Shown: positions 2,051-12,422 of the stretch, in pieces
How the letters are laid out: the number at the start of each line of letters is the position of its first letter
Numbering within the stretch: position 1 is the first letter of the stretch
NCBI GenBank assembly: GCA_020631315.1
Contig: JAHDHM010000050.1
Span: forward strand, 2,025 to 14,446
Direction: 5' to 3'
DNA: 12,422 nucleotides
Source: Acidimicrobiales bacterium
GTDB lineage: Bacteria > Actinomycetota > Acidimicrobiia > Acidimicrobiales > Poriferisodaliceae
Position numbers and translations under genes: made by a program
The notes under the pieces: model-generated
What the model saw: the letters and a program-made list of their open reading frames with translations, nothing else
Told to the model about the DNA's origin: nothing
The model's database searches: none

Positions 2051-2563
2051 CTAACCCCCGAGGCGGAGGCCCAGGTCGGACAGACGGCTGGAGGCCGAGT
2101 CGACGCTGGTGTCGAGGATGCAGGCGATCGCACGGAGATCGTCACGACGAATGGTCAGCATCCGGCCGTTGAAGTCCTGGCGTTGCATCTGGATCATCGA
2201 CAGGTAACGCGTGAGCATCGCCGCATCAGGACCGTCCATGGACTCGAGGCGAGTCAGGTCGATCGTGACGTTGGCGTCGTCACGGTTGTCGACGCCGTCG
2301 ACGGCATCGTCGTCGTCGGTGCGTGGCAGCAGCTGCGAGACCGGCACGTTGTAGAAACGTGCGAGTCGGTGCAGGCGAGGCACGGAGACGCCTCGCTCGT
2401 AGGCGCCCAGCACGGACGCCTTGAACTCGTGTGTCGACTCGGCTTCGACGTCCTGGAGCGACATGCGCTTCTGGCGACGAATGGCACGCAAGCGCTCACC
2501 CACACGCTTGCCGTAGGCCACATCCTCTTCGGATTCTGCCGATGTCAGATCGATGTCCGGCAC
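2051..2563 (-). CDS. bldD: BldD-like c-di-GMP-responsive transcriptional regulator
   Basis: A 170-residue regulator close in plan to Streptomyces BldD, the c-di-GMP-controlled repressor of development genes. Residues about 17-80 form the XRE-type helix-turn-helix (GERLRAIRRQKRMSLQDVE, then LGAYERG and FYNVPVSQLLP). An acidic linker follows (81-98, rich in Asp). The C-terminal domain (99-170) carries the BldD c-di-GMP signature RxD-X8-RxxD: Arg128-Gln-Asp130, eight residues, then Arg139-Arg-Asp-Asp142. The flanking QRQDFNGRMLTIRRDDLR closely follows BldD. Ligand-driven dimerisation on DNA is therefore expected, by analogy. The start is GTG at 2563, with AGGA (2574-2577) 10 nt upstream. A perfect BldD box at 2660-2672 suggests autoregulation. 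It lies between rsmE and hemW with spacers of 96 and 156 nt, so it is probably transcribed partly on its own. Confidence 0.93.
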   Translation of the reverse strand: MPDIDLTSAESEEDVAYGKRVGERLRAIRRQKRMSLQDVEAESTHEFKASVLGAYERGVSVPRLHRLARFYNVPVSQLLPRTDDDDAVDGVDNRDDANVTIDLTRLESMDGPDAAMLTRYLSMIQMQRQDFNGRMLTIRRDDLRAIACILDTSVDSASSRLSDLGLRLGG

Positions 2564-2659
2564 TGTTCGAGGTTCCTACCCGCTCACACAGGCAAGGGTT
2601 GCCGCGGCTGGACGATCCAGCTGCTCCCATGCCCGCCTCAATTCGGGGTGCACCCTAGC

Positions 2660-2672
2660 TCACTCTGAGTGA
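2660..2672. promoter_or_regulatory. predicted BldD-box operator
   Basis: TCACTCTGAGTGA is a perfect 6-1-6 palindrome. It fits all nine specified positions of the published Streptomyces BldD consensus nTnACnC(A/T)GnGTnAn. It overlaps the rsmE stop codon and lies 97 nt upstream of the BldD-like start codon. A second palindrome, GGGTGCACCC (2646-2655), is only 4 nt away on the regulator side. No firm promoter hexamers could be assigned in 2564-2659. Confidence 0.6.
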
Positions 2673-3391
2673 TGGCGCATCATGCCGGTCCGAATCGCCT
2701 GCAGAAGGGTCCCCGCGACCACCGCAGCGGTCTCCGCGCGCAGGACTCCGGGACCGAGGTCGACCGTCGCTCGCGCGGCGTCGATCTCCGCGGAATCCCA
2801 ACCGCCTTCTGGGCCAACGAGGATCGTGGGGTGGTCGAGGCCGACCGGCGCGCCACCCCATTGGGCGACTGCGACGCCGTCTCGAGCCATCACCTCAGTG
2901 GCGTTCGTCACCGGCTCGATCACCGGAAGATGGACGCGCCGCGACTGCACCGCCGCGGACCGTGCGACACCGTCCAGACGGCGTACTGCGGCCTCGCCCT
3001 TCTCGCCCTTCCAACGCACCACCGAGCGTGAGGACGACAGGAGGAGGATGCGGTCGACGCCGATCTCGGTGAGCTTCTGCACCGCCCACGTGGTCCGGTC
3101 GCCCTTGACCGCGACGATGCCGACGGCGATCGGCACCGCGGGTTCGGGGACGACGATCGGTTCGTGTTCGAGCTCGGCGACCGGGGCGAATCGTGCTGCA
3201 GCCCAGCTGCCTCGTCCGTCCCCGACCGTGATCGGGTCGCCGTGGCGCAGACGCCGTACACGGCCGAGGTGGTGTTGGTCCTCGTCGCTCAGGACGGGTG
3301 TCGACAGATCGTCGACGAACACGTGCGGGCCGCCGCGGCCGTCGGGGCGACGGACGCCATGGGCATCGCCGTCGGAGGGCTCGTTGGACAC
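2660..3391 (-). CDS. rsmE: 16S rRNA (uracil-1498-N3)-methyltransferase RsmE
   Basis: A 243-residue SPOUT-class methyltransferase, normal for RsmE, which methylates N3 of U1498 in 16S rRNA using S-adenosylmethionine. An N-terminal RNA-binding part (about 20-80, with DEDQHHLGRVRRLRHGDPI) precedes the SPOUT domain. There the family marks are QKLTEIGV (105-112), LVGPEGGW (191-198) and LGPGVLRAETA (212-222), the last two shaping the trefoil-knot SAM site. The start is GTG at 3391, one base after the dnaJ stop (TGA-C-GTG). No clear Shine-Dalgarno precedes it, so translational coupling to dnaJ is likely. hrcA-dnaJ-rsmE order is common in actinobacteria. The end of the gene overlaps a predicted BldD operator. 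Confidence 0.95.
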   Translation of the reverse strand: MSNEPSDGDAHGVRRPDGRGGPHVFVDDLSTPVLSDEDQHHLGRVRRLRHGDPITVGDGRGSWAAARFAPVAELEHEPIVVPEPAVPIAVGIVAVKGDRTTWAVQKLTEIGVDRILLLSSSRSVVRWKGEKGEAAVRRLDGVARSAAVQSRRVHLPVIEPVTNATEVMARDGVAVAQWGGAPVGLDHPTILVGPEGGWDSAEIDAARATVDLGPGVLRAETAAVVAGTLLQAIRTGMMRHHSE

Positions 3392-4665: not shown

Positions 4666-5667
4666 TCAGCTCGCGGTGTCGATGGACTCGCCGAGTTGTT
4701 CGGACACGACCTCGACCGCGGCGAGGGCCTTCGGGTAGTCCATGCGTGTCGGGCCGAGCACACCGACCGAACCGGCCTGCTCGCCGTCGACCACCAGCGG
4801 CGCCAGCACCACCGAGCACTCGGCGAGCGGCAGACCGGTTTCTGAACCGATGGCGACGGACAGACCACGGTCGAGCAGATCGCTCACCATGCTCACGACG
4901 ATCAACTGCTGCTCGAGGATGCTCAGCACGCCCCGCACGGTGTCGATGGCGTCGAACTGGGCGGCCATGTTCGAGGTACTGCCGACGAACACCGGCGCCC
5001 CGGCATCGCTTCCGGCGACGGCGTTCACCGCGGCCTCGACGACCACGTCGAGGCGGGCCTCACCGGTCGAACGGACCTCCAGCTCCGAACCCAGGCCCGA
5101 GCCGACGAGCAGGTCCGCCAGTGCGTTCGTGGCCCTGGCGACCAGATCGTCATCGGCGTCGTCGGGGAGCACCACGTCGTGTCGCTCGACCGTGCCGGAC
5201 GACAGCACGACGACCAGCAGCGCACGACCCGGCTCGAGCAGGACGAGCTGTGCGGACTTGACGACCGCCGGATCGTGCGACGGCCCGACGATCACGCCGG
5301 TGTAGGCGGTCAGGTCGGACAACAGCTCCGACGTGTCGGCCAACCGGTCTTCGATCGCCCCTCGTGCGGCCTGGAAGAAGTCCCGCACCTGCGCCGACTC
5401 GGTGGGCTGCAACACGCCGGCGCCACCCAGACCGTCGACGAACACGCGGTAGCCGAGCTCCGTCGGGACCCGACCGGCGCTCGTGTACGGCTGGCTCAGA
5501 TAGCCGAGCTGCTCGAGGGCGGCCATCTCGTTGCGGACGGTCGCCGACGACACACCGATCGACTCGTCCTTCGCGATGGCGACCGAACCCACGGGTTGTG
5601 CCGTGTCGATGTACTGGGCGACGACCGCCCGGAGTACCGCCGACTTGCGCTCGTCGAGGTCCGCCAT
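4666..5667 (-). CDS. hrcA: heat-inducible transcription repressor HrcA
   Basis: A 333-residue HrcA, the repressor that binds CIRCE elements at chaperone operons and is kept active by GroEL. The N-terminal winged helix (about 5-80) has SIGVSSATVRNEMAALEQLG followed by the HrcA hallmark SAGRVPTELGYRVFVD. The remainder is the GAF-like/dimerisation part, ending in LGPTRMDYPKALAAVEVV. The ATG at 5667 has no Shine-Dalgarno but TAGAAT lies 6 nt upstream, suggesting a leaderless transcript. No CIRCE (TTAGCACTC-N9-GAGTGCTAA) is seen before hrcA or dnaJ, so its targets, probably groES/groEL, would be elsewhere and hrcA seems not to be autoregulated by CIRCE. The terminator at 5698-5726 separates it from the acyl-CoA ligase gene. 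Confidence 0.96.
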   Translation of the reverse strand: MADLDERKSAVLRAVVAQYIDTAQPVGSVAIAKDESIGVSSATVRNEMAALEQLGYLSQPYTSAGRVPTELGYRVFVDGLGGAGVLQPTESAQVRDFFQAARGAIEDRLADTSELLSDLTAYTGVIVGPSHDPAVVKSAQLVLLEPGRALLVVVLSSGTVERHDVVLPDDADDDLVARATNALADLLVGSGLGSELEVRSTGEARLDVVVEAAVNAVAGSDAGAPVFVGSTSNMAAQFDAIDTVRGVLSILEQQLIVVSMVSDLLDRGLSVAIGSETGLPLAECSVVLAPLVVDGEQAGSVGVLGPTRMDYPKALAAVEVVSEQLGESIDTAS

Positions 5668-9301: not shown

Positions 9302-9409
9302 GTCTCTCGTCTCCGGTGTGCGGTGTCGCTGCGTTGCGGTGCCACGGCGCAGCGGTGTCACGACGACAACCCGAGAACGTACCGACTTGCTTCCGCCGCG
9401 CTGTTGCTT

Positions 9410-9453
9410 CTGTCTGTCCCAGCCGTTGCCAGAGCAACGCTGGAGACAGACAG
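9410..9453. repeat. 44-nt bulged palindromic element, copy 1
   Basis: Outer stem CTGTCTGTC/GACAGACAG (9 bp), middle stem CCAG/CTGG (4 bp) and inner stem CGTTGC/GCAACG (6 bp) close on the tetraloop CAGA. One base is bulged on each side, C9423 and A9444. The same architecture recurs at 12376-12419. It lies 17 nt past the leuS stop and 108 nt before the next gene. There is no T-run on either strand, so it is not a standard intrinsic terminator. Confidence 0.8.
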
Positions 9454-9470
9454 TTCGCCGGCGCGCAGGG

Positions 9471-12332
<2,862 letters not shown>

Positions 12333-12345: not shown

Positions 12346-12375
12346 GGACCTCGTCACGCTGCCCGAGTGCCCTTT

Positions 12376-12419
12376 CTGTCTGTCGCAGGCGTTGCCCTGG
12401 CAACGCTGCAGACAGACAG
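12376..12419. repeat. 44-nt bulged palindromic element, copy 2
   Basis: Same length and orientation as copy 1: stems CTGTCTGTC/GACAGACAG, GCAG/CTGC and CGTTGC/GCAACG, tetraloop CCTG, with bulges G12389 and A12410. It matches copy 1 at 38 of 44 positions. The differences fall in the loop, in the left bulge and in one pair that swaps C-G for G-C. It lies 43 nt upstream of leuS, and the window ends 3 nt beyond it. Confidence 0.8.
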
Positions 12420-12422
12420 TTC

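Follow-up and report, generated by a model that had tools for sequence, protein, structure and literature searches.

A BldD box conserved on the rsmE stop codon, a probable site of BldD self-control in Acidimicrobiia

Introduction

Development in Streptomyces is under the control of a c-di-GMP-dependent master regulator, BldD. Its binding site there, the BldD box, follows the consensus TNAC(N)5GTNA, which the available part of PMC4151990 cites from den Hengst et al. 2010. The same text describes a c-di-GMP tetramer that links two subunits of BldD and promotes their binding to this box. According to the accessible text of PMC4255298, Streptomyces BldD directly represses, among other targets, its own gene, as an earlier note on the present DNA had also stated. 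Control of the diguanylate cyclases CdgA, CdgB, CdgC and CdgE by Streptomyces BldD is described in the accessible part of PMC8325347. As far as the available portions of PMC8325347, PMC13102240, PMC4151990 and PMC4255298 go, BldD is tied to sporulating actinomycetes; they also mention a BldD orthologue in Acidimicrobium and suggest that simpler actinomycetes might use BldD in growth and stationary phase. No paper on BldD sites in Acidimicrobiia was found among the matches listed, whose available texts come from the open-licence literature, with most subscription papers outside it.

The site studied here lies in a stretch of 12,422 nucleotides (the window) from a member of the Acidimicrobiia, a class that is not known to form the aerial spores of Streptomyces. 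It is like the Streptomyces box in matching all eight fixed bases, in forming a 13-bp pseudo-palindrome and in lying upstream of bldD, but differs in its position inside the end of rsmE and in its host, which is not a sporulating actinomycete. The sites of the order additionally favour [GT]C[AT]G[AC] at the centre, and the first T of the consensus is often C. The site, its position and conservation, the synonymous constraint on rsmE, the -10-like element and the c-di-GMP signature reported below were all obtained by computation. The palindrome is probably the operator of the bldD promoter, at which c-di-GMP-bound BldD would repress its own gene. A known kind of operator would thereby be extended to the Acidimicrobiia and to a position that takes in a neighbour's stop codon.

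The box at the end of rsmE

The genes around the site are all on the minus strand, in the order hrcA-like, dnaJ-like, rsmE, bldD-like and hemW-like; hrcA, dnaJ and hemW were named by eye. The features used below are as follows.

2660 to 2672, no strand assigned: BldD box and putative operator TCACTCTGAGTGA, overlapping the last rsmE codons and the stop codon, conserved in relatives.
2652 to 2657, minus strand: TAGGGT, a -10-like element and presumed core of the bldD promoter, two bases past the box, assigned by conservation.
2564 to 2651, minus strand: presumed 5' leader of the bldD mRNA, without a known RNA family.
2051 to 2563, minus strand: bldD-like gene with a GTG start, 170 amino acids, HTH plus BldD-like C-terminal domain.
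2138 to 2182, minus strand: codons of the c-di-GMP signature RQD-X8-RRDD (RQDFNGRMLTIRRDD), an instance of RXD-X8-RXXD as given in the available part of PMC4151990.
2389 to 2390, minus strand: junction at which three residues are missing from the window's BldD by alignment with relatives, just after the predicted DNA-recognition helix.
2660 to 3391, minus strand: rsmE, RNA methyltransferase family (PF04452, 1.3e-31), whose 3' end carries the box.
4666 to 5667, minus strand: hrcA-like open reading frame, named by eye.

All 8 fixed bases of TNAC(N)5GTNA are matched by the box, as the earlier note had claimed, and the rsmE tail CAT-CAC-TCA-GAG-TGA is spelled across it on the minus strand, the stop codon TGA (2662-2660) included; the note's placement of the box over that stop codon is thus correct. 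Its description as a perfect palindrome holds for the two 6-bp arms but not for the centre, where a T/A cannot complement itself. The spacer between the box and the GTG start at 2563 is 96 nt (2564-2659).

The consensus occurs once in the whole window, where 1.37 matches are expected from whole-window shuffles. One match per 12.4 kb is therefore unsurprising, and the significance of the box rests on its position. The chance of the eight fixed bases falling within about 100 nt is about 1.5 in 1000, close to the 1 in 1000 estimated by the earlier note.

The BldD-like protein

By BldD, the nearest relatives of the window are Acidimicrobiia genomes from metagenomes (best 80 of 508 loci, which form the first set of relative loci); a scan of viral contigs found no relatives. 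Seven close proteins (P0002 and P0004-P0009) were compared at the protein level only.

Like Streptomyces BldD, the window's protein has an N-terminal HTH and a BldD-like C-terminal domain (PF21179, 1.6e-20), although HTH_31 and HTH_3 match this copy below their gathering scores. Searches with phmmer matched PDB chains 2ewt (2.7e-13), 4oaz and others that are listed as DNA-binding proteins and that we take to be BldD domains. The protein carries RQD-X8-RRDD as its version of the c-di-GMP signature RXD-X8-RXXD. Of 145 distinct BldD sequences, 133, the window's included, have this signature; the remaining 12 all belong to one sister clade and have RXE-X8-RXXD (L047, L060, L062, L194, L243-L247, L250-L252). 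In the available part of PMC4151990, the D is called conserved in all homologues compared there. The RXE sister clade keeps a 7-of-8 bldD box despite having E for D.

Unlike Streptomyces BldD, the protein reaches only about half of the NCBI cutoff (138.7 bits against 250 for the BldD equivalog model NF050110), its gene adjoins rsmE and a hemW-like gene, and three residues of the HTH domain are missing. Because 138.7 bits lies below the cutoff, it is called a BldD-family protein, probably an orthologue and not an equivalog by NCBI's rule.

The missing residues (RG-VSV in place of RGERAISV) are present in 29 of 29 aligned relatives. This raises an unlikely but still appreciable alternative for the window itself, namely a defective or wrongly assembled allele in which the operator is inherited but this copy of BldD fails to bind it. 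AlphaFold2 models made with 30 sequences fit such a defect. For the relative P0003, residues 21-80 had block-mean pLDDT values of 84-89, with separate helices and a clear HTH, whereas the model of the window's BldD, built from those 30 sequences too, reached 48-65 over residues 31-80 and had its first helices merged. By eye, a short repeat at the 2389-2390 junction would permit slippage. Nevertheless, the reading frame is open, the protein is 83-92% identical to those of six clade relatives, and both operator and c-di-GMP signature are intact. The gap may be a real deletion or an assembly error, the two being equally possible because there is one record only. Such a defect can be compatible with self-repression by BldD in the clade as a whole.

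Conservation at the rsmE-bldD junction

Of 39 genomes of the family, 20 had a BldD match at 1e-50; their junctions and that of the window gave 21 distinct junctions (24 loci with three duplicate pairs). All 7 of the window-clade junctions compared (the window and L001-L006) have the box on the rsmE stop codon; it is an 8-of-8 match in four of them (the window, L001, L002 and L004), and in the other three the first T is replaced by C. In the sister clade, whose BldD is about 65% identical to the window's, 12 of 12 distinct junctions have a 7-of-8 box on the same stop codon. Its sequence is CCACTCT[CG]CGTGA, read as the codons CAC-TCT-[CG]CG-TGA, in which the first T of the consensus is C; in 9 of the 12, C also replaces the central G of the extended core. 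The left half-site has decayed in two further family loci, L249 and L253.

The DNA of the rsmE tail itself appears to be under selection. Over the five terminal codons of rsmE, synonymous-codon identity, counted as identical codons among sequence pairs sharing an amino acid with Met and Trp excluded, was 0.92 in the window clade (7 sequences) and 0.96 in the sister clade (12 sequences, among them L247, which contains Ns and has a misaligned end). The gene-wide values were 0.42 and 0.49, a baseline that takes in poorly aligned 5' ends since reading frames were set from the preceding stop codon. The last four-codon window ranked 1 of 130 in the window clade and 2 of 154 in the sister clade. Promoter and operator would extend into the 3' end of rsmE, so that its last codons would be fixed by the operator and not by the protein alone, a clean example of a regulatory site that constrains the codons of an upstream gene. 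The palindrome is thus conserved beyond what the rsmE codons need, a point on which the earlier note had made its proposal depend.

The box also occurs outside codons. A 9/9 match to the extended box TNACNCWGNGTNA was found within 300 nt upstream of bldD in 11 of 81 loci, against 0.06 expected from the remaining 387 kb of the same loci, which hold one such match. Seven of these 11 loci, from other lineages (L039, L045, L056, L057, L059, L064 and L077, of which four are closely related to one another), have the box in the non-coding stretch between rsmE and bldD. L059 comes from strain IMCC26207, whose record carries no metagenome label. Short GTGAGTAG-like repeats, seen by eye, follow the box in L056, L057, L059 and L064, and their copy number varies between relatives.

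Directly after the box, TGA-N2-TANGGT is conserved in 20 of 21 distinct family junctions; the spacing is broken in the exception, L004. A strict sigma-70 consensus scan found no -35/-10 pair, and TAGGGT was therefore assigned to the presumed promoter by conservation. The pair TTGGAC-17-TATGGT was seen by eye in 3 of 12 sister-clade junctions (L060, L062 and L243); the other nine differ in the first hexamer. No terminator was found at the box site. The leader has a faintly riboswitch-like look, but a riboswitch or structured leader was rejected, as no Rfam match reached gathering scores in the window; the one chance-level match within 2500-2720 overlaps the box and lies outside the leader.

In the proposed mechanism, a BldD dimer joined by c-di-GMP would bind the palindrome and, since this is placed directly before the -10-like TAGGGT, exclude RNA polymerase from the bldD promoter. 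At high c-di-GMP, BldD would in this way limit its own synthesis. Binding, its dependence on c-di-GMP and repression in preference to activation are what we infer here. The conservation of the box in related uncultured actinobacteria suggests BldD self-control far from the spore-forming Streptomyces. The conserved autoregulatory loop proposed by the earlier note is to that extent supported by the computations, autoregulation being its inferred part.

A genuine BldD operator could also act mainly otherwise than by repressing a bldD promoter, by activating bldD or by blocking read-through from hrcA-dnaJ-rsmE into bldD. This would suit a box that sits in the end of an upstream gene, with rsmE and bldD co-oriented and with a -35 element that is unrecognisable in the window. 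It is improbable in view of the TANGGT found right after the box in nearly all junctions, the sister-clade TTGGAC-17-TATGGT pairs seen by eye and the non-coding boxes of the seven loci.

The box before bldD across the order

The comparison was widened to 170 loci, of which L219 and L225 were dropped (BldD anchor missing); 29 of the remaining 168 had identical upstream regions, leaving 139. The added loci were taken by score rank, which biases the set toward closer relatives, down to G240:C23 and without G221. Among the 139, the anchor is less certain in 19, which account for 2 of the 49 core matches below, and three have shortened upstream regions.

Of the 139 distinct regions before bldD, 29 contain the published box as an 8-of-8 match (4.8 expected) and 110 do not. 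The core ACNCWGNGT gave 49 matches in 42 upstream regions, and three of these matches (in L029, L069 and L076) lie less than 60 nt from the anchor and are probably intragenic; 3.6 matches are expected from the rest of the loci, and the exact core is absent from 97 of the 139 regions. The reversed core, used as a control, gave two matches, and 100 dinucleotide shuffles gave a mean of 6.2 and a maximum of 13. When the loci were clustered at 80% BldD identity, the core was present in some member of 18 of 46 clusters and in 13 of 46 when each was represented by one locus, against 2 of 46 for the reversed core.

An unbiased scan for inverted repeats (256 half-sites x 13 gaps, with the 208 present in at least five loci ranked) placed CACT-N3-AGTG first and CACG-N3-CGTG second. 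In the 58 added loci taken by themselves, the latter ranked first; none of these loci has a full 9/9 extended match.

The presence of the hrcA-like reading frame nearby raises a further alternative, that the palindrome is the site of another regulator, such as a CIRCE-like site for HrcA. CIRCE is GCACTC-N9-GAGTGC, and its half-sites CACTC and GAGTG recur in the box. The arms of the box are, however, one base apart and not nine, and none of the ten CIRCE-like matches in the window (12.3 expected by chance) has fewer than three mismatches. In addition, relatives carry CACGC-A-GAGTG, which does not fit CIRCE, and the box tracks bldD upstream regions throughout the order. The HrcA site was rejected, and we attach very little probability to any reading of this kind. 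A chance spelling of the box by the rsmE tail codons (H-[SA]-E-stop) would agree with the 1.37 matches expected in the window but has a negligible likelihood and was rejected, given the counts before bldD (11/81 against 0.06 and 29/139 against 4.8), the non-coding occurrences in other lineages, the unbiased scan, the reversed-core and shuffle controls, and the codon identity.

Genome-wide placement and candidate targets

In the genomes of six relatives, CACKCWGMGTG occurs 65 times against 39 for its reversed control, with the control commoner than the box in G004 (7 box against 11 control). The placement of the sites was compared after removal of bldD loci and duplicates, which left 57 box sites, and with 38 of the 39 control sites, of which 18 had shorter flanking sequence. 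Among the box sites, 33 of 57 fall outside called open reading frames, against 3 of 38 for the control (Fisher P 3e-7), and 29 of 57 are within 300 nt before a start, against 2 of 38 (Fisher P 1e-6). These figures rest on a simple purpose-made ORF caller based on codon usage, and they come from relatives that are not independent, as G005 and G006 have several sites in common. The other 24 box sites are inside called open reading frames and have no evident target. In these six genomes the looser box TNACNCWGNGTNA has 49 sites and its control 33, a difference that is unconvincing alone.

At the level of the order, 298 genomes showed no excess of CACKCWGMGTG (1439 against 1433 for the reversed control), and box and control counts were independent of a BldD match (1074/1084 in genomes with one and 365/349 in those without). 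A plain genome-wide count of the box was consequently rejected as evidence of a regulon at order level, and the regulon reading is restricted to the window's relatives. Of the genome-wide check put forward in the earlier note, non-random placement was borne out in the six relatives, but no excess in number accompanied it in the 298 genomes.

Several neighbours of the relatives' boxes recall the control of Cdg proteins in Streptomyces. In L281 (G005) and L277 (G006), a HAMP-GGDEF-EAL gene has its start codon 42 nt downstream from where the core box begins; the two were counted as one case because G005 and G006 are close relatives. In L142 (G004), a GGDEF protein is encoded downstream of a looser box. 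Unlike the Streptomyces targets, other candidate neighbours are flagellar, cell-wall or surface genes, with none for sporulation among those inspected. A box lies between the flagellin and FliD genes in L134 (G002), and an M23 peptidase is encoded downstream of a looser box in L129 (G002). These assignments were made with Pfam; the L125 protein had no Pfam match. Further box neighbours recognised by eye are TetR regulators, secreted repeat proteins, peptide-binding lipoproteins and other coiled-coil cell-wall enzymes.

It is possible, and put forward tentatively, that BldD of the Acidimicrobiia heads an old c-di-GMP regulon for motility, surface and cell wall, with two feedback loops, one through its own gene and one through genes that make or degrade c-di-GMP. 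If this were true, the developmental role of BldD in Streptomyces would be a later use of an older switch between motile and sessile states, and the bldD operator would have been retained in its neighbour's stop codon since before the two clades of the family split. The conserved box and the candidates in c-di-GMP turnover, flagella and cell wall offer a concrete way into the role of BldD before sporulation.

In L100 (1786-1832), three tandem copies of TCACCCTGCGTCA with 17-bp spacing lie upstream of a gene that resembles, by eye, one for an MFS transporter.

Other repeats in the window

A direct repeat, AACGC[AG]ACGAAGCCGCCC, occurs at 1917-1934 and 1993-2010, between bldD and the hemW-like gene, and the stretch around it is, by eye, rich in GAAGCGAGCG-like repeats. 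A 49-nt imperfect palindrome is present in two 88% identical copies (9408-9456 and 12374-12422) that flank leuS (9471-12332), and the end of the window coincides with the second copy. In the six relatives, the core of this palindrome was found in three places, each with two mismatches, in two of the six genomes.
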